Shown in pieces: positions 9,844 through 62,334 of a stretch of 64,000 nt of DNA. Position 1 is the first letter of the stretch. Each line of letters opens with the position of its first letter. Source of the DNA: Thermus thermophilus (GTDB taxonomy: Bacteria; Deinococcota; Deinococci; Deinococcales; Thermaceae); NCBI RefSeq assembly GCF_019974155.1, contig NZ_AP025158.1, positions 1,922,001 to 1,986,000 of the forward strand, read 5' to 3'. The position numbers and the translations under genes were made by a program. The notes below the pieces were generated by a model. That model did not search any database, was not told where the DNA came from, and saw only the letters and a program-made list of their open reading frames with translations.

Positions 9844-11058
9844 ATGGACCTAAGCTCCCTGAGGGAGGACTTCCCCCTCCTCGCCAAGCGCCCCGAGCTC
9901 GTCTACCTGGACTCCGCCGCCACGAGCCAGAAGCCGAGGCGGGTCATAGAGGCCCTGAAGCGCTACTACGAGGAGCAAAACGCCAACGTCCACCGGGGGG
10001 CCTACCGCCTCTCCGTGGAGGCCACGGAGGCCTACGAGGAGGCGCGGCGCCGCCTGGCCCGCTTCCTCCACGCCGAGCCCCGGGAGATCGTCTTCGTGCG
10101 CAACACCACGGAGGCCATGAACCTGGTGGCCTACGCCTGGGGCCTTAGGAACCTTAAGGAGGGGGACGAGGTCCTGGTCACGGAGATGGAGCACCATGCG
10201 GGCCTCGTCCCCTGGCACCTGGTGGCGGGCCTCAAGGGGGCCAAGGTGAAGGCCATCCCCCTCACCGAGGAAGGCCGCCTGGACCTAAGCGCCTTGGACG
10301 ACCTCCTCACGGAAAGGACCAAGGTGGTCTCCCTGGTCCACATGTCCAACGTCCTCGGCACCATCAACCCCGTGGCCGAGATCGCCAAGAAGGCCAAGGA
10401 AGTGGGGGCCCTCGTGGTGGTGGACGGGGCCCAGTCCGCCCCCCACCTCCCCGTGGACGTCCAGGCCCTTGGCGCCGACTTCTTCGCCCTTTCCGGGCAC
10501 AAGATGCTCGGGCCCACGGGGGCCGGGGTCCTTTGGGGGCGGTACGAGGTCCTGGAGGGGATGATGCCCTTCTTGGGGGGCGGGGAGATGATCCGGGAGG
10601 TCCACGTGGACCGCTCCACCTACGCCCCCCCGCCCCAGCGCTTTGAGGCGGGCACCCCCCCCATCGCCGAGGCCATCGCCCTGGGCGAGGCCGCGGCCTA
10701 CCTCATGGAAGTCGGGATGGAAAAGGTCTTCGCCCACGACCGGGCCCTTCTGGCGTACGCCCTAGAGCGCCTGGAGGAGGTGCCGCGCCTCCGGGTCTAC
10801 GGGCCCAGGGGCGAGGACCGGGGCGGGGTCATCCCCTTCACCTTAGGCCGCCTCCACGCCCACGACCTCGCCACCTTCCTGGACCAGGAGGGGATCGCCG
10901 TGAGGGCGGGCCACCACTGCGCCCAACCCCTCCACCGGAAGCTCGGCCTTGCGGCCACCGCCCGGGCGAGCTTTTACCTCTACAACACGAAGGAAGAGGT
11001 AGACCGCTTCGTGGAAGCCCTCCTAAGGATAGAGGCCAAGTACCGGGCCTGGCTATAA
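9844..11058 (+). CDS. sufS: Cysteine desulfurase SufS
   Basis: A 404-residue PLP enzyme that releases sulfur from cysteine as a protein persulfide. It shows LDSAATSQKP at the N-terminus, the PLP-binding lysine in ALSGHKMLGPTG, and the catalytic cysteine in GHHCAQPL, all typical of group II desulfurases. SufU follows after 7 nt, an arrangement typical of SufS-SufU systems where SufU accepts the sulfur. SufBCD genes are not in the window. Confidence 0.95.
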   Translation: MDLSSLREDFPLLAKRPELVYLDSAATSQKPRRVIEALKRYYEEQNANVHRGAYRLSVEATEAYEEARRRLARFLHAEPREIVFVRNTTEAMNLVAYAWGLRNLKEGDEVLVTEMEHHAGLVPWHLVAGLKGAKVKAIPLTEEGRLDLSALDDLLTERTKVVSLVHMSNVLGTINPVAEIAKKAKEVGALVVVDGAQSAPHLPVDVQALGADFFALSGHKMLGPTGAGVLWGRYEVLEGMMPFLGGGEMIREVHVDRSTYAPPPQRFEAGTPPIAEAIALGEAAAYLMEVGMEKVFAHDRALLAYALERLEEVPRLRVYGPRGEDRGGVIPFTLGRLHAHDLATFLDQEGIAVRAGHHCAQPLHRKLGLAATARASFYLYNTKEEVDRFVEALLRIEAKYRAWL

Positions 11059-11065
11059 TGGACCA

Positions 11066-11482
11066 ATGAGCGTCCTTGACGAGCTTTACCGGGAGATCCT
11101 CCTGGACCACTACCAGAGCCCCAGGAACTTCGGGGTTCTGCCCCAGGCCACCAAGCGGGCCGGGGGGATGAACCCCTCCTGCGGGGACCAGGTGGAGGTG
11201 ATGGTGCTCCTGGAGGGGGACACCATCGCCGACATCCGCTTCCAGGGCCAGGGGTGCGCCATCAGCACGGCGAGCGCCTCCCTCATGACCGAGGCGGTAA
11301 AGGGCAAGAAGGTGGCGGAGGCTCTGGAGCTATCCCGCAAGTTCCAGGCCATGGTGGTGGAAGGGGCCCCCCCGGACCCCGCCTTGGGCGACCTCCTCGC
11401 CCTCCAGGGGGTGGCCAAGCTCCCCGCCCGGGTGAAGTGCGCCACCCTGGCCTGGCACGCCCTGGAGGAGGCCTTAAGGTGA
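11066..11482 (+). CDS. sufU: SufU sulfurtransferase/Fe-S assembly protein
   Basis: A 138-residue IscU-like protein with the three conserved metal-ligand cysteines in NPSCGDQVEV, GQGCAIS and KCATLAW, plus the Asp of CGD. The spacing and the insert between the second and third cysteine identify SufU rather than IscU. It accepts sulfur from SufS through a zinc site. It overlaps the next start (GTG at 11479) by 4 nt. Confidence 0.93.
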   Translation: MSVLDELYREILLDHYQSPRNFGVLPQATKRAGGMNPSCGDQVEVMVLLEGDTIADIRFQGQGCAISTASASLMTEAVKGKKVAEALELSRKFQAMVVEGAPPDPALGDLLALQGVAKLPARVKCATLAWHALEEALR

Positions 11483-53148: not shown

Positions 53149-53454
53149 TCACCCCCGGATCTCCTTGATGAGGAGCTCGGTATAGGGCTGGCGGTGGCCC
53201 TTCTTCCTGCGGTACTGGACCTTGGCCTTGAACTTGGAAACCAGGATCTTCTTGCCCCGGCCATGGCCCAGCACCTCGGCCACCACGCTGGCCCCCTCCA
53301 CCACCGGGGTGCCCACCACGGTCTTCTCCCCGCCCAGGAGGAGGACGGGAAGCTCCACGGTGGCCCCGGGCTCCGCGTCCAGCTTCTCCACCCGAAGCTT
53401 AAGGCCGGGCTCTACCCGGTACTGTTTGCCGCCTGTCTTCACGATCGCGAACAT
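53149..53454 (-). CDS. rplU: 50S ribosomal protein L21
   Basis: A 101-residue L21: [21 protein letters not shown], then [34 protein letters not shown]. It is the first gene of the rplU-rpmA-obg operon with its own promoter upstream. Confidence 0.97.
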
Positions 53455-53494
53455 GCCACACCTCTGCCGGGCCCCCGGGCCCTACCGGTCTTCC

Positions 53495-53523
53495 ACTATA
53501 GACCAGCGGGGGCGTAACCGCAA
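53495..53523 (-). promoter_or_regulatory. Promoter of rplU-rpmA-obg operon
   Basis: Minus strand TTGCGG (53518-53523) and TATAGT (53495-53500) with 17 nt spacing. Transcription would start near 53488, giving a ~33-nt leader. It sits between the tRNA-Ala terminator and rplU. Confidence 0.75.
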
Positions 53524-53526
53524 GCT

Positions 53527-53547
53527 AAAACCCCCCTTTCGGGGGGT
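53527..53547 (-). terminator. Terminator of tRNA-Ala
   Basis: Minus-strand hairpin CCCCCC-GAAA-GGGGGG (arms 53541-53546 and 53531-53536) followed by TTTT, directly after the tRNA 3' end. Confidence 0.85.
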
Positions 53548-53551
53548 GTTT

Positions 53552-53627
53552 TGGTGGAGCCGAGGGGATTCGAACCCCTGACCTCCTCAATGCCATTGAG
53601 GCGCGCTCCCAACTGCGCCACGGCCCC
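53552..53627 (-). tRNA. tRNA-Ala (anticodon GGC)
   Basis: A 76-nt tRNA with encoded CCA. The acceptor stem is GGGGCCG/CGGCTCC with a G3-U70 pair, the identity element of tRNA-Ala. The anticodon stem is CCTCA/TGAGG with loop ATGGCAT, giving anticodon GGC (Ala). The T loop GTTCGAATC is intact. Confidence 0.96.
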
Positions 53628-53638
53628 AGGCAACGCCC

Positions 53639-53667
53639 ATGGTACCGAGGAGGGCCCGCTTTGTCAA
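53639..53667 (-). promoter_or_regulatory. Promoter of tRNA-Ala
   Basis: Minus strand TTGACA (53662-53667) and TACCAT (53639-53644), 17 nt apart. The -35 overlaps the last codons of secG, so tRNA transcription does not depend on the secG transcript. Confidence 0.75.
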
Positions 53668-53891
53668 CGGGGCCAGAGGCCGATGACCAAGGCCAGGGCC
53701 GCGAAAACCACCCCCAGGATCACCGTGAGGCGGTAGAGCCCTCCCGTCACGCCCCGGGCGGAGAAGAGGTCGGCCGAGCCCCCCATGAGGTCCCCGGCCC
53801 CCTGCTTGGGCTCCTGCACCAGCACGAGGTAGACCAGTAGCCCGGCCACGCCGAGGTAGATGAGGATGACCAAGGTGTAGAGCAGGTCCAT
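53664..53891 (-). CDS. secG: Preprotein translocase subunit SecG
   Basis: A 75-residue SecG: first membrane helix LVILIYLGVAGLLVYLVLVQEPKQGAG, cytosolic GGSADLF, second helix TVILGVVFAALALVIGL. It completes the SecYEG channel. ATG at 53891 (MDLLYTL) is the family start; longer frames overlap the tRNA-Thr promoter. Confidence 0.93.
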   Translation of the reverse strand: MDLLYTLVILIYLGVAGLLVYLVLVQEPKQGAGDLMGGSADLFSARGVTGGLYRLTVILGVVFAALALVIGLWPR

Positions 53892-53919
53892 GCCCCCCAC
53901 TCTACCAGAGGGGGACCGG

Positions 53920-53948
53920 TTGCGGGAAGTGGCCCCTTGGTTTACACT
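53920..53948 (+). promoter_or_regulatory. Promoter of tRNA-Thr
   Basis: TTGCGG (53920-53925) and TACACT (53943-53948) 17 nt apart; transcription would begin about 53955, 6 nt before the tRNA. Divergent from secG. Confidence 0.75.
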
Positions 53949-53960
53949 CTCAAGGGGCGG

Positions 53961-54035
53961 GCCGGTGTAGCTCAGCGGTAGAGCAACCGCCTCGTAAGCG
54001 GTAGGCCGCCGGTTCAAATCCGGCCACCGGCTCCA
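53961..54035 (+). tRNA. tRNA-Thr (anticodon CGT)
   Basis: A 75-nt tRNA with encoded CCA. Acceptor stem GCCGGTG/CACCGGC, anticodon stem ACCGC/GCGGT with loop CTCGTAA, anticodon CGT (Thr), T loop GTTCAAATC. It is intact, and its 3' 45 nt are also found at 59280-59324; it is the integration site of the island described below. Confidence 0.96.
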
Positions 54036-54049
54036 CACCAGAACGCAAA

Positions 54050-54085
54050 AACCCCCGCCTTACTCTCAGGGCGGGGGTTGCTTTT
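54050..54085 (+). terminator. Terminator after tRNA-Thr (island side)
   Basis: AACCCCCGCC (54050-54059) pairs with GGCGGGGGTT (54070-54079), then GCTTTTG. It lies 15 nt after the tRNA and belongs to the island sequence. Confidence 0.8.
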
Positions 54086-54147
54086 GACCAATACCTTCGT
54101 GTGCTACTTGATCTGGACCCTCGGGGTGTGAAAAAAGAGGGGGTGCT

Positions 54148-54807
54148 ATGCAGCAAAATCGTGAGCACCCCCTTTACCATCTTGACGCAGAAACCCTCCT
54201 CGTGGCTACCTACATCTGGGTAGGTCACGGGCTTAGCCCGTACCTTGCTGACGAACCGAAAGCCCTGCAGGCCCAAGGATTCAAGCTCCCCCCAAAGCAA
54301 AAGCACCAGAAAGCTACCCTGGCCGAGCTCCTGACCCTCGCCATCTGCAAGATACGGCCTTCGGCCGTGACCCTCCTGTTGCAAGGCCAGGACCTCGCCA
54401 AAGGCTACCTGGCCGCCAAGACCACCCTCAAGGCCTACTTCCCCTCCCTCCCCCACCTCTCCCGCTTCTATCGGGTCCTTCAGAAGGCTCAGGGGTTGTT
54501 GGCTCACCTGGCCATAAGGCTCTCCGGAGGGCAAGGTCTTCTGCAGGTGGTGGCCCCCAAGCTACGGGCCTCGCCCGTGACCAAACCCATCCCCCTGGCC
54601 CACGGCCACCGGATTCACGGCTTGGACCTCCCTGAGGCCGCTGTGGGGGTGGGCCCCCTGGGGGCTTTCGCGGGCTACGTTCTCATGCCGGTGATGAACG
54701 AGCGCGGCCTCTTTTGGAACCTAGCCCCTTCGGGGCTGACCCGTTGGGCTATCCTCGTGGCAGGAAGGGGTGGTGCCCCCGGGGGCGGAGGCCCTGCCGC
54801 GCCCTGA
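54148..54807 (+). pseudogene. Truncated DDE transposase
   Basis: The first ~150 residues (LDAETLLVATYIWVGHGLSPYL, ATLAELLTLAICKIRPSAVTLLL, PSLPHLSRFYRVLQ) and the segment HGLDLPEAAVGVGPLGAFAGYVLMPVMNERGLFW look like an IS4/IS982-type DDE transposase. The first catalytic Asp expected before PIPLAHGH is replaced (VTKPIP) and the chain breaks off into unrelated sequence after about residue 200; the last ~30 residues probably continue in another frame at 54800-54895 (ALTKKGRVVHDALEAV). It is not a working transposase. RBS-like GAGGGGG precedes ATG 54148. Family assignment is tentative. Confidence 0.65.
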
Positions 54808-54895: not shown

Positions 54896-55123
54896 TTAAA
54901 GCGCCTCGAACTCCTCGGGGGTGAGCCCTGCCTGGCGTAGGATGCTCCTCAGGGTGCCCACGGCGATTTCCCGGTGGGCGGGGACGATGGCCACGTGAAG
55001 CCCGTGCGGGTCTTCCCTGACGAACTTCACGTGACTTCCCTTCTAGGAGTGGACGACAAACCCCGCCGCCTCGAGGCGGCGCTTCACCTCCCGGTAGGGA
55101 AGCGGCCTAAGCGGCGGGGCCAA
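54896..55123 (-). pseudogene. hicA: HicA-like toxin gene with an in-frame stop
   Basis: In the frame starting TTG at 55123: PLRPLPYREVKRRLEAAGFVVHS, then TAG (55043-55045), then KGSHVKFVREDPHGLHVAIV and GTLRSILRQAGLTPEEFEAL to the TAA at 54896. This is a textbook HicA apart from the stop codon two residues before the catalytic GSH motif. Without it the protein would be about 75 residues. The intact HicB antitoxin gene is directly upstream. Confidence 0.75.
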
Positions 55124-55316
55124 GCTCCACCTCTACCGTGCGCACCACGGGGGCGCGCTCCGGGGTGGGAGGCTCGAAGTAGAGCTCCAGGGCCTCCTTA
55201 AGGTTCTTCAAGGCCTCCTCCTCGGTTTCCCCCTGAGAGGCCACGTCTACCTCGAGGCACTGGGCCACCCAGAGGTCCCCTTCCCGCCAGAGGTGGGCCG
55301 TAAAGCGCCGGGTCAT
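55107..55316 (-). CDS. hicB: HicB-like antitoxin
   Basis: A 69-residue HicB: FTAHLWREGDLWVAQCLEVDVASQGETEEEALKNLKEALELYFE, typical of the short HicB form. Its 3' end overlaps the hicA frame by 17 nt, as in other hicBA pairs. With the toxin frame broken, this antitoxin has no obvious partner inside the island. Confidence 0.85.
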   Translation of the reverse strand: MTRRFTAHLWREGDLWVAQCLEVDVASQGETEEEALKNLKEALELYFEPPTPERAPVVRTVEVELGPAA

Positions 55317-55400
55317 GACCTCATGATAGCGCCCTCTACACCGGCGGGAGGCTCACGCGGCGGCGGGAAGGAGGGGGCGGGGCGTTTCTGCAAGTTTTGA

Positions 55401-55700
55401 GTCAACCTGGACGTGGCCGAGGTGTTCAGGCCCGTCCTCGCCGACCGGTTGGTCTTCCGCCTCGTGCGCAGGGGGCAGGTGAAGCCGGGGCACTTCCTCC
55501 GAGAGGGGGAAGGGGTCTTCCTCTCCGAGGCGGGAAGGAGGCTTGTAGTGGAGGAGTGGGAGAAGACCCTCCAGACCACCTACCAGCACCGCGCCTTGAG
55601 GCGGGCCGTCTCCTACAGGACCACCTTGCGCCTGGAGCTCTACAAGCTGGAAAAGCACCTGATTGGGGAACAGCCCTACACCCCCTACCGCCTGCGCTGA
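55401..55700 (+). pseudogene. cas1: C-terminal fragment of cas1
   Basis: From 55401 the frame reads VNLDVAEVFRPVLADRLVFRL, and continues with GHFLREGEGVFLSEAGRRLVVEEWEKTL, RRAVSYRTTLRLELYKLEKHLIGEQPYTPY. This matches the last ~100 residues of type I-B-like Cas1, including the LDxAE-F-RP segment of the active-site region; the catalytic Glu and His upstream are missing. There is no cas2, and the array starts 188 nt further on. A stop precedes the fragment (55398-55400), so it is a remnant. Confidence 0.85.
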
Positions 55701-55757
55701 ACTTTGACCAAGTCCAAGTTGGCGCCAACCCCCAATCCCCCCCAAAACCCGGGGGGG

Positions 55758-55786
55758 TTGACGCACACCCCCCGACCTGCTACATT
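55758..55786 (+). promoter_or_regulatory. CRISPR leader promoter
   Basis: TTGACG (55758-55763) and TACATT (55781-55786) with 17 nt spacing lie in the AT-richer leader between cas1 remnant and first repeat. Transcription from about 55793 would give a ~95-nt leader RNA before the first repeat. The repeats end GAAAC in the same direction, as expected for crRNA 5' handles. Confidence 0.75.
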
Positions 55787-55887
55787 GACCCTAGGCGGCT
55801 GGGCCTTTTCCACCTCGGCCGCAGGGGTTCTTGAAAACGAAGATTAGAGTTCCGTGAGAGCCTAGCGTGCAGGACAGCATTTTGGCT

Positions 55888-57996
55888 CTTTTGACCGTAC
55901 CTATGAGGGTTTGAAACAATACGCCCTGGCCTGGGAGGGCCTAGGGGTGCGCACCTTTTGACCGTACCTATGAGGGTTTGAAACTGGTACGGGACTGCCC
56001 GAAGTATCTCCGCCACAGGAACCTTTTGACCGTACCTATGAGGGTTTGAAACCCTGCCCACCTGGTCCGACGAGGAGCTGGAAGAGTGGGCTTTTGACCG
56101 TACCTATGAGGGTTTGAAACTTCAAGTCGGATGGCTGGTTCACCATTCCGAGGCTGCTTTTGACCGTACCTATGAGGGTTTGAAACAGCCAAATGTCCTG
56201 CCCACCCTCTTCATCGGGGGGCTTTTGACCGTACCTATGAGGGTTTGAAACTAGCATTACCAGTCGGTTTTGCAAAGTCCCACCCCTCTTCTTTTGACCG
56301 TACCTATGAGGGTTTGAAACAGCCCCGCGAAGGCCCAGGGGGGCACCCCCAGGGCCCTTTTGACCGTACCTATGAGGGTTTGAAACATGGGGAGTGGAGT
56401 TTCGGCGAGCGTGGTTTCTAGGCGCTTTTGACCGTACCTATGAGGGTTTGAAACAGCGTCACGGTCACGAGGTTGGAGGAGGTCCGCTTTTGACCGTACC
56501 TATGAGGGTTTGAAACCGTGAATAGCTCCCACCCTTTCATGTGGTCCTCGCGAGCTCCTTTTGACCGTACCTATGAGGGTTTGAAACAAGGCCTGGGCGC
56601 TCCATGCCACCTGGCTGGACCTTCTTTTGACCGTACCTATGAGGGTTTGAAACAGGTCTTCGGGAGGGGGTGGGTGCGCCGCGTGGCCGCCCTTTTGACC
56701 GTACCTATGAGGGTTTGAAACCGAATAGCCATAGCGGCTTTCTCTTCTGTAGCCACCCTTTTGACCGTACCTATGAGGGTTTGAAACGCCGCCCTGGGCT
56801 CATCCCGAGGACTGGGAGGCTTCCTTTTGACCGTACCTATGAGGGTTTGAAACTTGAGGAGCCTATCTTCCGCCAGCAACTTAAGCATCGCTTTTGACCG
56901 TACCTATGAGGGTTTGAAACCCCTTTACGCCCGCAAGGACGCGGCGGACCAGCTCCGCTTTTGACCGTACCTATGAGGGTTTGAAACATCAATTCGGCAA
57001 CTTGGCAAGAGGCTGAGCGGCTTCTTTTGACCGTACCTATGAGGGTTTGAAACCGCCTACCCCTCGGCCTCGCCGAGGGGCTTAAGCGCCCCTTTTGACC
57101 GTACCTATGAGGGTTTGAAACCTGGTAGACCTCAACCGAGCGGCGCCAGAAACCGGGCCTTTTGACCGTACCTATGAGGGTTTGAAACTTGCGGTTCCCC
57201 GGAGTGGCCTCCCGGGCGAACTCGTCTTTTGACCGTACCTATGAGGGTTTGAAACAGGAACTGGTGGGGGTGCTCAAGGCTCTCACCGCGGCCCCTTTTG
57301 ACCGTACCTATGAGGGTTTGAAACGCCCCACAAGTGGAAAGCCTTATGGCCCGCGCCCTGGCTTTTGACCGTACCTATGAGGGTTTGAAACTTAGTAGAG
57401 ATTCTCCGTCTCCTCCAATGCACTTTGCTTTTGACCGTACCTATGAGGGTTTGAAACCCTCAAAGGCAATCTCCGGGGCGATGCTATAAACCTTGCTTTT
57501 GACCGTACCTATGAGGGTTTGAAACCGCAGAGTTCCCCCCGGAGGGGGGGTCCCCCCCAGAAGCTTTTGACCGTACCTATGAGGGTTTGAAACTTTTTTT
57601 CCTTCATCTCCTCCTCCTTTCCCCCTGGCTTTTGACCGTACCTATGAGGGTTTGAAACAGTTCTCCCTCGATCCACCAGCGGTGCTTCACGTTTCCCCTT
57701 TTGACCGTACCTATGAGGGTTTGAAACTCTTTAGGGGGGGTTATAGGGGGGGAGGTGGGAGATTTCTTTTGACCGTACCTATGAGGGTTTGAAACTTTGC
57801 TGCCAATAGATTGCGTCACGAGCGGCCCCCACCTTTTGACCGTACCTATGAGGGTTTGAAACTTGTAGTCCACGGACTGGATGATGCACCGCTGCCACAC
57901 CTTTTGACCGTACCTATGAGGGTTTGAAACCCGGGTATAAGACCCACTCCGATTATGGGCCCGGTCGTTTTGACCGTACCTATGAGGGTTTGATAA
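55888..57996 (+). CRISPR. CRISPR array, 32 repeats, type I-B-like 30-nt repeat
   Basis: Thirty-one identical 30-nt repeats plus one degenerate terminal repeat (57967, GTTTTG start and TGATAA end) with 31 spacers of 32-41 nt. The repeat begins CTTTTGACCGTACC and ends GAGGGTTTGAAAC. The degenerate end repeat and the promoter on the left place the leader at the 55888 side. The repeat has a weak hairpin (CCTATGAGG). The cas1 fragment next to it is of type I-B-like kind; no other cas gene is in the window. Confidence 0.97.
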
Positions 57997-58018
57997 GAAA
58001 TCCCCCTGATCCATTCCC

Positions 58019-58996
58019 TCAGCATCCTCCCGGCCACCAGTGAAAGAGGGTATGGCTCCGAATCAGGCCCGGCTGGGTCTGCAGGTAGGCGCACCGGGCC
58101 TCCACCCTCGCCCAAAGCTCCTCCTCCGTCTCCACCCGCCCGTTGGCCACCACCGCGTCCACCAGGGGCCACACCCGCGTCCAAGACCAAAAGCAAAAGC
58201 TTCCCCTCCCCAGCCCCACGCAACCGGGCAAAGCGCCCCAGGACCTCCGAGAAGGCCACAGCGTTCACCGTGGGCAAAAGCCAAAACTCGCTCTCCCCTG
58301 TACCCGGACGCACGAAGCCGTACACGTAAAGCCACCGGTACCGCGGCCGCACCCAGGCCAGGGGCGTCTTCCCCCGGGGCGCCCACACCCGCCGGTACAC
58401 GGGCTTCAGGCCCAACCTGTGTTCGTCAAAAGCCCAAAGCTCCAGGACAAGCCAGGGGAAGAGGCACTTCAGGAGGACAACGGTGAAGAAGAGTTTTTTT
58501 TGAAGGCCTCCCCCTCTTCCACGTCCCTCTCCCGGTGCCGGGGACGGGGGCGGAGGGGGGCGAAGCCCAGGCGCTTCATCCAGGTCCAGGCCCGCCTGGG
58601 GTCCACGGGACGGCCCAGCCTCTCCGAGAGCCACAGGGCGGCGTTCCTTATCGTCCATATCCCCTCCTGGGGATGGGGCTGGAGGAGGGCCTGGCGGAAG
58701 GCTTCCTGAAGCTCCGGGGAGAGCAAGGGGGGCTGGCCTGGGTTTTGGTGCCGGAGGTCGGCCATGGGCTGGCCTTCGTTGTAGCGGTGGAGGGTGTTGC
58801 GGACCCAGCGGGTGGAGTAGCCCAGGGTCTGGGCCACCTGGGGGATGGAGTGGCCTGTGGCGAGGAGCCAGATGGCGTGCCAGCGGGCGCGTTCCACGGG
58901 GTCCTCGCTTTCCCGGTAGAGGGCGTGCAGGTTGTCCGGGTGATGCCGCAGCTTGAGTTCCAGCCGGGGGCGGCGTTGGTGTTTGGTCAGCCGCAT
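58019..58996 (-). pseudogene. Broken IS630-family transposase
   Basis: Frame 1 (58996-58469) starts MRLTKHQRRPRLELKLR and carries the helix-turn-helix domain IWLLATGHSIPQVAQTLGYSTRWVRNTLHRYN. It ends at an A8 run (58494-58501), where a -1 slip gives KKKLFFTVVLLKCLFPWLVLELWAFDEHRLGL with the first catalytic Asp-Glu and then LLLLVLDAG with the second Asp. The rest of the DDE domain is missing: near 58165 the sequence jumps to PLVDAVVANGRVETEEELW and FHWWPGG in another frame. So the frameshift may be programmed (as in active IS630 elements) but the element is also internally deleted. 58997-59279 shows no gene. Confidence 0.8.
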
Positions 58997-59279
58997 GACC
59001 CCATACTAAGAGAAAAACCCAGGGGGAGTTCTTATGAGGGACTTGGCCCGCTTCCTTTGGGAGATGGCAAACCGCTTGGAGGGGTGGGCGCGGCAAAACT
59101 CCTCCAAAGCGCAGTCCCTGAGGGAAAAAGTCAGGGGTTTGGCCTGAGGATAGACCAAGATTTTGACCAATAAGCAACGGGGAACAGCAAGAACCAACGG
59201 CAACCAAAACCCCCCTAAAGTACCCTTTTGAACGCTTTTCGCCACAACCGCCTTCCCCAAAAGCCCGGTTTTAGGGGAG

Positions 59280-59324
59280 CTCGTAAGCGGTAGGCCGCCG
59301 GTTCAAATCCGGCCACCGGCTCCA
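59280..59324 (+). repeat. attR-like copy of the tRNA-Thr 3' end
   Basis: The 45 nt from CTCGTAAGCGG to the CCA end are identical to 53991-54035. The 5' half of the tRNA is absent, so this is not a second tRNA gene. Upstream sequence (TTTTAGGGGAG) differs completely from the tRNA, as expected at an integration boundary. Confidence 0.9.
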
Positions 59325-59329
59325 GCCGA

Positions 59330-59351
59330 GGCCCCGGGTGCACCCGGGGCC
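59330..59351 (+). terminator. Former tRNA-Thr terminator
   Basis: A 22-bp perfect palindrome (GGCCCCGGGTG/CACCCGGGGCC) followed by TTCTCCTT, 5 nt after the tRNA fragment. It would have terminated the tRNA before the island inserted. Confidence 0.75.
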
Positions 59352-59376
59352 TTCTCCTTGCCCTCAAGCGCAAGCC

Positions 59377-59405
59377 TTGACGCATAACGCATAAGGGGTT
59401 AGCCT
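59377..59405 (+). promoter_or_regulatory. Promoter of rtcB
   Basis: TTGACG (59377-59382) and TAGCCT (59400-59405), 17 nt apart. Transcription would begin near 59411, about 45 nt before the rtcB start, and through a hairpin. Confidence 0.7.
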
Positions 59406-59415
59406 AAAGATGAGC

Positions 59416-59445
59416 CCGGGCCGTCTGGCCCGGACGTTGTTTTTA
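59416..59445 (+). promoter_or_regulatory. Hairpin and T-run in the rtcB leader (possible attenuator)
   Basis: CCGGGCC (59416-59422) pairs with GGCCCGG (59427-59433), loop GTCT, and is followed by ACGTTGTTTTTAG. This resembles an intrinsic terminator placed between the promoter and the rtcB start. The short frame ATG at 59410 overlaps it and continues in frame with rtcB, so a leaderless longer product (16 extra residues) is another possibility. Confidence 0.5.
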
Positions 59446-59457
59446 GAGGAGGGCCCC

Positions 59458-62334
59458 ATGCGCTTTGAGAAGATCGCCCCCTACACCTACCGCATCCCCC
59501 GGCAGGGGAAGATGCGGGTGGACGCTGTTTTCTTCGCCTCAAAGGAGATCCTAAAGGACCTCGAGGCGGAAAACTACGCCTCCTTGCAGCAGCTCATGAA
59601 CGTGGCCACCCTCCCGGGCATCGTGGAGCCCGCCCTGGCCATGCCCGACATCCACTGGGGCTACGGCTTCCCCATCGGGGGGGTGGCGGCCTTTGACCCG
59701 GAGGAGGGCGGGGTGGTGAGCCCGGGCGGCGTAGGGTTTGACATCAACTGCCTGCCCCCAGGAACCCGGATCCTCTTCCGCGACGGGTACACCCGCCCCA
59801 TAGAGGAGCTGGCGGAGGAAAGAGCCCCCAACCTGGTGGTGTGGCGGCTTGGGGAGCGCCCGGAAGCGGCCCAGGCGGCGCTTCTCCTTTCCCGGGAGGC
59901 GGAAGAACTCCTTAGGCTCCGCACCGAGGGCGGGTTCGTCCTGGAGGCGACCCCGGACCACCCCCTCTACACCCCCGAGGGGATGCGGCCTGCGGGCGCC
60001 TTGCGGCCGGGGGACCGGGTGGCGGTCCACCCCTTCCGGGGCCTTCCCTACGAGCCCCCTCCACCCCTATCCCTCCTCGAGGAGGAGGAAGCGGAAGCCT
60101 GGGCCCGGACCCTCGGCTTTCCCCAGGCGCCCCGGGAACTCCGGGCGCGGGGCCTTCTTCCCCTCCGGGCGGACCATCCCCACCTCCCCGCCCTCCTCCG
60201 CCTCCTGGGCTACGCCTTCGGGGACGGCACCCTTTACCGCTCGGGGGGGCGGGCCTACCTGGTCCTCTACGGGGAGGAGGAGGGGTTGCGGGAGGCCAAA
60301 GCCGACCTGGAGCGTCTGGGTTTCCGGGCAGGGGGACCCTACTTGCGCCGCCGCAACCCCACCTTCCGGGGGCGGACCTTTGACGCGGCGGAGGCGGGTC
60401 TGAAGGTGTCTTCCCGTGCCCTCTTCCTCCTCTTCCGCGCCCTCGGCCTCCCTGAGGGGGCCAAGGCCAAGCAGGGCTTCAGGCTGCCTGCTTGGCTCTT
60501 TGCCCTTCCTCCCTGGCTTAAGGCGAACTTCCTCGCGGGCCTTTTCGGGGCAGAGCTTTCCGCGCCCAAGGCCGTAAGCGGCCACGAGTACAACCTGGTC
60601 CCTCCGGTGCTTTCCCAATCCAAGCGCCGAAGCTTCCTGGAGGAAGGGCGTGCCTTCACCGAAGACCTCGCCCGCCTGGTGGCCTCCTTGGGCCTCGAGG
60701 TCCAGGACCTTCGCGAGGAGGCCGACTGGGAGGAACCCGAGGACCCCTCTCACCGCTTCAAGCTCATCCTCCGCTCCACGCCGGAGAACCTCGCCCGGCT
60801 TTACGAGGAGGTGGGCTACGCCTACGCTCCTAAGAAGGCGCGCCTCGCCCTTCTCGCCGCCCTTTACCTCCGCCTGAAACAGGCCCACCTGGCTCGGAGG
60901 GAGTCTATGGCCGCGGAGGTTTTGGCCCTGCGGGAGGCCGGCGAGAAGGTGGCGGCCATCGCCCACCGGCTTGGGGTGCCCCGCCGCTTCGCAGAGCGGA
61001 CGCTTTACGAGAAGCGGGGCGCTTTCCGGCCCCAGGGCCTTCCCACCTTCCCCGAGTTCGTGGCGGCGCAGGGGGCGATGCTCTTTGACCGGGTGGTGGC
61101 CGTGGAGCGGGTGCCTTACGGGGGGAAGGTGTACGACCTTTCCATGGCCCACCCGGACCACAACTTCGTGGCCGAGGGGTTCGTGGTCTCCAACTGCGGC
61201 GTCCGCCTCCTCGCCTCCCACCTCACCCTGGAAGACCTCCTCCCCCGCCAGAAGGAGCTCGCCGACGCCCTCTATCGCCTCGTCCCCTCGGGGGTGGGAA
61301 GCGAAAGGCGGGACGTGCGCTTTAGCAAAAAGGAGCTCAAAGAAATCCTCAAGGAGGGGGCGGGCTGGCTCGTGAAGCGGGGCTTTGGCTACCCCGAGGA
61401 CCTGGGCTTCATTGAGTCCCAAGGCCGCCTCCCCTGGGCCAACCCCGACAAGGTCTCGGAAAGGGCCTTTGAGCGGGGGGCCCCCCAGATCGGCACCTTG
61501 GGAAGCGGGAACCACTTCCTGGAGGTGCAGTACGTGGACGAGGTCTACGACGAGGAGGCGGCCGAGGCCTACGGGCTCTTCCGGGGACAGGTCACCGTCC
61601 TCATCCACACGGGAAGCCGGGGCTTAGGCCACCAGGTCTGCCAGGACTACGTGGAGCGCTTCCTCAAAGCCGCCCCCCGGTACGGCATTGAGCTCGTGGA
61701 CAAGCAGCTCGCCGCCGCCCCCATAAAGAGCCCCGAGGGCCAGGACTACCTCCAGGCCATGGCCGCCGCCGCCAACTTCGCCTTCGCCAACCGCCAGCTC
61801 ATCGCCCACTTCGTACGGGAGGCCTTTGAGAAGGTGGGCTTTACCCCCAGGGACCACGGCCTTAGGGTCCTCTACGACCTCGCCCACAACAACGCCAAGT
61901 TTGAGGAGCACGGGGGCAGGCGGGTCCTCGTCCACCGCAAGGGGGCCACCCGGGCCTTCGGCCCCGGCCACCCGGAGGTCCCCGAGGCCTACCGCCGGGT
62001 GGGCCAGCCCGTTTTGGTGCCCGGGGACATGGGCCGATACTCCTACGTCCTCGCGGGGACGGAAAAGGCCATGGCGGTTTCCTTCGGAAGTAGCTGCCAC
62101 GGGGCCGGGCGCAAGATGAGCCGCCACCAGGCCAAAAAGGTGGCCCGGGAGCGGAACCTGGTGAAGGAGCTTGCGGAAAGGGGCATCCTGGTGCGGGCCG
62201 CCACCCGGGCCACGGTGGACGAGGAGATGCCCGAGGCCTACAAGGACGTCTCCTTGGTGGTGGAGGCGGTGGAGGGAGCGGGGATCGGGAAAAAGGTGGC
62301 CCGCCTCAGGCCCCTCATCGTGGTCAAGGGGTAA
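59458..62334 (+). CDS. rtcB: RNA-splicing ligase RtcB with an intein
   Basis: A 958-residue precursor: 476 residues of RtcB interrupted by a 482-residue intein. RtcB joins 2',3'-cyclic phosphate to 5'-OH RNA ends using GTP and Mn2+. The extein has the metal-binding FDIN|CGVRLLAS, GTLGSGNHFLEVQ, AHNNAKFEEH and SSCHGAGRKMSRHQA with the guanylated-His region. GAGGAGGG precedes ATG at 59458; an in-frame ATG at 59410 would add 16 residues. It needs archease, found at 18903. Excision of the intein before Cys98 is required for activity. Confidence 0.95.
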   Translation: MRFEKIAPYTYRIPRQGKMRVDAVFFASKEILKDLEAENYASLQQLMNVATLPGIVEPALAMPDIHWGYGFPIGGVAAFDPEEGGVVSPGGVGFDINCLPPGTRILFRDGYTRPIEELAEERAPNLVVWRLGERPEAAQAALLLSREAEELLRLRTEGGFVLEATPDHPLYTPEGMRPAGALRPGDRVAVHPFRGLPYEPPPPLSLLEEEEAEAWARTLGFPQAPRELRARGLLPLRADHPHLPALLRLLGYAFGDGTLYRSGGRAYLVLYGEEEGLREAKADLERLGFRAGGPYLRRRNPTFRGRTFDAAEAGLKVSSRALFLLFRALGLPEGAKAKQGFRLPAWLFALPPWLKANFLAGLFGAELSAPKAVSGHEYNLVPPVLSQSKRRSFLEEGRAFTEDLARLVASLGLEVQDLREEADWEEPEDPSHRFKLILRSTPENLARLYEEVGYAYAPKKARLALLAALYLRLKQAHLARRESMAAEVLALREAGEKVAAIAHRLGVPRRFAERTLYEKRGAFRPQGLPTFPEFVAAQGAMLFDRVVAVERVPYGGKVYDLSMAHPDHNFVAEGFVVSNCGVRLLASHLTLEDLLPRQKELADALYRLVPSGVGSERRDVRFSKKELKEILKEGAGWLVKRGFGYPEDLGFIESQGRLPWANPDKVSERAFERGAPQIGTLGSGNHFLEVQYVDEVYDEEAAEAYGLFRGQVTVLIHTGSRGLGHQVCQDYVERFLKAAPRYGIELVDKQLAAAPIKSPEGQDYLQAMAAAANFAFANRQLIAHFVREAFEKVGFTPRDHGLRVLYDLAHNNAKFEEHGGRRVLVHRKGATRAFGPGHPEVPEAYRRVGQPVLVPGDMGRYSYVLAGTEKAMAVSFGSSCHGAGRKMSRHQAKKVARERNLVKELAERGILVRAATRATVDEEMPEAYKDVSLVVEAVEGAGIGKKVARLRPLIVVKG
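59749..61194 (+). other. RtcB intein with LAGLIDADG homing endonuclease
   Basis: Inserted before the active-site Cys of FDIN-CGVR (same site as known RtcB inteins). Splicing block A starts CLPPGTRILFRDG with Cys1, block B has LEATPDHPLYTPEG (TxxH), and the C-terminus is VAEGFVVSN with terminal Asn and Cys+1 in the extein. The middle holds LAGLIDADG motifs LLGYAFGDGTL and FLAGLFGAELS separated by ~110 residues, plus a helix-turn-helix stretch (LALREAGEKVAAIAHRLGVPRRFAERTL). The acidic D/E of the second motif is present as E, so activity is uncertain. Confidence 0.92.

Follow-up and report, generated by a model that had tools for sequence, protein, structure and literature searches.

Array C, its leader and the adjoining cas1 fragment

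The analyzed sequence (the window) is a 64-kb part of the 2.15-Mb chromosome of a Thermus strain, and it contains a CRISPR array, here called array C. The features around the array are listed below by window position.

53961-54035, + strand: tRNA-Thr (anticodon CGT, predicted by ARAGORN), the integration site; the same tRNA is also present where relatives have the empty site or the elements
53991-54035, + strand: attL-like 45-bp direct repeat, the 3' end of tRNA-Thr, a perfect match to 59280-59324
54036-54096, no strand assigned: remnant of the left end of an integrative element; positions 53956-54096 share 98.6% identity with the corresponding end of a 9.4-kb element (L098)
54091-54715, no strand assigned: fragment of a multi-copy repeat element, likely an IS, with about 9 other genomic copies
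54900-55379, - strand: hicA/hicB-like toxin-antitoxin region, 91% identical to hicBA of pAA3-7c, as on T. thermophilus plasmids
55402-55700, + strand: cas1 3' fragment, the last 99 of about 327-336 codons, a copy from the intact gene
55701-55887, + strand: leader of array C, homologous to leaders A and B and to those of other Thermus arrays
55758-55786, + strand: promoter-like TTGACG-17-TACATT within the leader, identical in leaders A and B
55888-57993, + strand: array C, 32 repeats and 31 spacers, with an incomplete trailer repeat (57967-57993)
57994-59034, - strand: internally deleted IS630-family element at the trailer repeat (transposase E 9.6e-26), with other genomic copies
59035-59279, + strand: right-end remnant, the C terminus of the AAA ATPase gene of the element, with an identity of 97% with L098 and 96% with L099
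59280-59324, + strand: attR-like 45-bp direct repeat, a perfect match to 53991-54035

The repeat of array C is CTTTTGACCGTACCTATGAGGGTTTGAAAC (30 nt, first copy from 55888). The earlier note on this DNA had described a long array of 31 spacers with perfect repeats. The count was reproduced, with 31 unique spacers of 37 nt on average (range, 32 to 41 nt), and repeats 1 to 31 were identical letter for letter; the description fails only for repeat 32 at the trailer, which starts with G and is interrupted after GTTTGA by the end of the IS630 element. A search of viral contigs gave no match to the repeat. The leader promoter, which had been considered intact in appearance, was located at 55758-55786. 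Two promoter-like matches were found in this region, compared with 0.1 expected from shuffled sequences, and the -35 box and approximate spacing are kept in the leaders of other Thermus strains.

The cas1 fragment matched positions 229 to 322 of the 324-position Cas1b profile (E 7.7e-31). It begins with NLDVAE immediately downstream of an in-frame TGA and retains the catalytic Asp, while the Glu and His of the metal site are missing, as the earlier note had proposed. That cas2, cas4 and interference genes are missing nearby was also borne out, since tblastn with eight type I-B Cas proteins detected no other I-B cas remnant in the 64-kb window.

The type I-B locus and the origin of the cas1 fragment

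A search of the genome for a cas locus with the same repeat, as suggested in the earlier note, found a complete type I-B locus on the same chromosome, about 1.06 Mb from array C, between two arrays at 913.8-915.9 kb and 925.8-926.9 kb.

C1:913795-915913: array A, 32 repeats
C1:925759-926924: array B, 17 full repeats

Between these arrays, cas1, cas4 and cas3 run in one direction and cas6, cas8b, cas7, cas5 and cas2 in the opposite direction. The eight genes are uninterrupted, their reading frames contain no internal stops, and they match the models Cas1b, Cas4b, Cas3b, Cas6b, Cas8b, Cas7b/Csh2, Cas5b and Cas2b. The type I-B assignment rests on Csh2, which scored above its cut-off (202 bits), and on Cas8b, Cas5 of type I-B and Cas3b as best models in PADLOC; Cas8b was weak in NCBIfam. 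The genome contains one full I-B Cas1 and one other Cas1, in addition to the fragment beside array C. The repeats of arrays A and B are identical to that of array C at 29 of 30 bases and differ only at base 1 (G in arrays A and B, C in array C), so that the 8-nt 3' end is common to the three arrays. In type I-B systems, these last eight bases would become the handle of the crRNA. With an uninterrupted locus and two such arrays on the same chromosome, array C is not an orphan, and the suggestion that it is served in trans by Cas proteins elsewhere is supported.

Two irregularities were seen at the main locus. Leader A is separated from the intact cas1 by an IS of 1,169 bp, which lies shortly before the conserved promoter (L024:5056-6224; genome C1:916056-917224); its inverted ends measure 18 bp, and it is accompanied by a 9-bp duplication of the target (AACCCGGGG). 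Array B carries a truncated repeat of about 20 nt between two spacers (L024:15665-15762), and its trailer has an additional partial repeat.

The 353 bp at window positions 55402-55754 showed 100% identity with the final part of the intact cas1 and the sequence that follows it. When the IS at the main locus was disregarded together with its 9-bp duplication, the identity extended through the leader promoter, with no difference in 402 bp (the cas1 fragment plus 103 nt downstream). In contrast, the 84 bp nearest array C showed 15 differences from leader A (Fisher p about 1e-12), some of which were absent from every other leader compared. Because 402 bp are 100% identical to the intact locus, the cas1 piece is a copied 3' end of the intact gene and not, as the earlier note had it, a decapitated gene. 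The lack of cas2, cas4 and interference genes beside array C is likewise not a loss, because the intact cas1 persists in the genome and the piece copies its 3' end; the proposed recent decay is thus not upheld. A decayed cas locus, with remnants of several cas genes and no intact copy in the genome, was considered and rejected, as only a cas1 end was found, identical to the intact cas1. Because 402 bp without a difference are followed by 15 differences in the last 84 bp, the block of cas1 end, leader and array is a mosaic: its cas1 end and promoter agree with the resident locus, and its proximal leader and repeats are of another lineage. The left junction of the block (GTTTCTGCAAGTTTTGAG) has no second copy elsewhere in the genome. 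None of the array C spacers was seen in array A or B. A recent origin of array C by copying of array A in its present state is therefore ruled out, also by repeat base 1 and the differences in the proximal leader.

The tRNA-Thr insertion and the spacer targets

Array C lies within a 5,289-bp insertion flanked by perfect 45-bp repeats of the 3' end of tRNA-Thr(CGT), which the earlier note had missed. The 45-bp repeat has only these two copies in the genome. In a relative (G017), window positions 53301-54035 and 59280-59900 align to adjoining DNA with an overlap of exactly 45 bp, which represents the empty site. Direct repeats of a tRNA 3' end together with an empty site in a relative mark the insertion as a tRNA-site integrative element. 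In two other relatives (G006 and G016), this tRNA is occupied by elements of 9.4 kb with ends matching those of the insertion. The one in G006 has genes for a tyrosine integrase, a Toprim-domain protein, a DUF3987 protein and a ribbon-helix-helix protein. Around array C, about 60 bp and 245 bp of the element ends are left, and the middle consists of the repeat-element fragment, the hicBA-like region, the block with the cas1 end and array, and the IS630 element. No match to the related integrase was found in the insertion. The island probably no longer moves, because only the element ends remain and the four related integrases elsewhere in the genome have 45-49% identity and lie close to other tRNAs.

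These four integrases, of ICE type, are located near 160, 1088, 1455 and 1829 kb of the chromosome (G000:C1), each at most about 0.2 kb from a tRNA gene (Val, Val, Arg and Arg, respectively), which suggests several further integrated elements in the genome. In another Thermus genome (G013; L100:2436-3922), a 1.4-kb stretch lies between tRNA-Thr repeats and contains a gene similar to the one for a PIN-domain protein in the G006 element. The tRNA-Thr gene is a recurrent integration site in Thermus. Beyond the island, window positions 59410-62334 hold an RtcB-like RNA ligase frame of 974 aa with an apparent in-frame intein, judged by eye from the translation.

Nine of the 31 spacers of array C matched protospacers in Thermus phages or in prophage-like stretches of other Thermus genomes with 0 to 6 mismatches, a frequency similar to that in array A (8 of 31). 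The matched spacers were scattered through the array, from spacer 1 to spacer 29. Spacer 20 matched phage Riverbug perfectly (37/37), spacer 5 matched phage MN1, and the newest spacer, spacer 1, matched a stretch of a putative T. brockianus genome with one mismatch and a TCG flank. A putative T. brockianus genome (G007) carries a Riverbug-like prophage at 1464-1486 kb (94.8% identical over 4.4 kb), which is matched by spacers from arrays A, B and C. The upstream (5') flanks of the array C protospacers gave the consensus TTG (T in 8/9, T in 6/9 and G in 6/9), and the same positions agreed in 6/8, 5/8 and 4/8 cases for array A and in 3/6, 5/6 and 4/6 cases for array B. Exactly TTG was found in five of the nine array C flanks, for which the chance is about 5e-9 with assumed Thermus base frequencies. 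No target other than the array itself was found in the same genome when the concatenated spacers were searched, and the plasmid search gave no match. The common targets and PAM are consistent with one adaptation machinery and common exposure; they are silent on whether spacer uptake by array C postdates its arrival in the island.

Array C as a probable remote array served in trans, and comparison with known systems

Taken together, array C is most likely a working remote array, served in trans by the type I-B locus and situated inside a dead integrative element. In this reading, the complete type I-B system, at a distance of about 1 Mb, has array C as its third memory bank; we are less sure of continued spacer acquisition. 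The leader promoter would drive a precursor RNA, which Cas6 from the distant locus would cut at the common repeat, leaving the TTTGAAAC handle, and with these guides the resident Cascade and Cas3 would act against Thermus phages. Spacers would have been added in trans at the leader by Cas1-Cas2-Cas4. In a published survey, arrays with identical repeats in one genome are reported to have comparable spacer acquisition rates whatever their distance from cas (PMC12814883). Because the proximal 84 bp of the leader and the first repeat base differ from those of array A, trans acquisition at array C could be weaker or could date from before the move. The cas1 fragment would be a passive copy carried along with the block, because cas1 lies directly upstream of the leader in this system, and the block presumably came to rest in the remains of the tRNA-Thr-integrated element together with IS elements and the hicBA-like region. 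The interrupted trailer repeat was counted against a working array.

It is possible, although we consider it the less probable account, that array C is a relic, which may still be transcribed and used but stopped acquiring spacers once it had moved away from cas1 and will erode. The 15 differences in the proximal leader, some of them unique among the leaders compared, and the IS630 element at the trailer end would fit such a state. However, repeats 1 to 31 are identical, the promoter is the same as in arrays A and B, phage matches are no rarer among its spacers than among those of array A, and the newest spacer matches the putative T. brockianus stretch. Horizontal arrival of array C as cargo of the tRNA-Thr element, that is, as portable immune memory, is unlikely. 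The perfect att repeats, the exact empty site in G017 and the related elements at the same site in G006 (with its integrase) and G016 agree with it, as do the leader and first repeat base, which differ from those of arrays A and B and of which base C also occurs in T. thermophilus HB5018 and Thermus sp. JCM 17653; on the other side, the element is reduced to its two ends without the integrase, the related elements have no array of the same repeat, and the identity of the cas1 end with the resident copy suggests copying within the genome or gene conversion at a later time. We give very little credence to the further idea that the att-flanked island moves, or recently moved, the leader-array block between Thermus cells with an integrase acting in trans, as memory useful only to recipients with matching I-B cas genes. 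Least probable of all is that the site derives from a second complete cas locus that lost its other genes by deletion, since the order of cas1 end, leader and array, which is normal for the intact locus and for other Thermus strains, is outweighed by the 100% identity to the resident cas1, the window without any other cas remnant, the hicBA-like region at the left junction and the position of the entire block in a 5.3-kb insertion missing from one relative.

With array C read as a remote array of the resident system, an apparently dead array becomes the remote member of a natural set, alongside proximal arrays, within one system on one chromosome. Arrays A, B and C have distinguishable leaders and first repeat bases, and therefore trans acquisition and trans crRNA use would be directly measurable in a thermophile. 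In addition, a cas gene fragment next to an array need not signal decay, which calls for caution in automated calls of degraded CRISPR loci.

Among relatives, repeats starting with C occur in both arrays of T. thermophilus HB5018 and in the array of JCM 17653. The I-B locus on the HB5018 plasmid pHB5018b (L027) has a split cas1, truncated cas3 and cas8 and no match to cas7, with both arrays still in place; it is truly degraded and represents a case of decay, in contrast to the array C window. A leader-like stretch of the same family was seen near a contig end in another Thermus (G016:C10 near 10992-11167; L196). A Cas1 search of a collection of genome contigs retrieved relatives but no second island-borne array.

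The array C repeat fits exactly the consensus of a 30-nt Thermus repeat class, GTTTCAAACCCTYATAGGTACGGTYMRAAG (reverse complement GTTTCAAACCCTCATAGGTACGGTCAAAAG), which was labeled I-A (PMC6452258), whereas the cas genes here score as I-B. A third, cas-less array on the chromosome of the putative T. brockianus GE-1 (L096) belongs to the same array family and, like array C, has a conserved leader and lies far from the cas locus; unlike array C, it has no cas1 fragment and lies between metabolic genes and, within the stretch examined, not in an insertion flanked by tRNA repeats. ICETh1 of T. thermophilus HB27 is also inserted at a tRNA 3' end with direct repeats (47 bp there and 45 bp here), but it occupies tRNA Ile, is 14.9 kb long, keeps its integrase and excises (PMC5365140), whereas only the element ends remain in the array C island. 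Remote arrays used in trans have been described across CRISPR types (PMC12814883); like them, array C has an identical repeat core, its own leader, no local cas genes and one complete cognate cas locus, and it additionally has the copied cas1 end and the tRNA-site island. A remote array in a tRNA-site element is a neat combination rather than a new kind, and the arrangement is of a known type.
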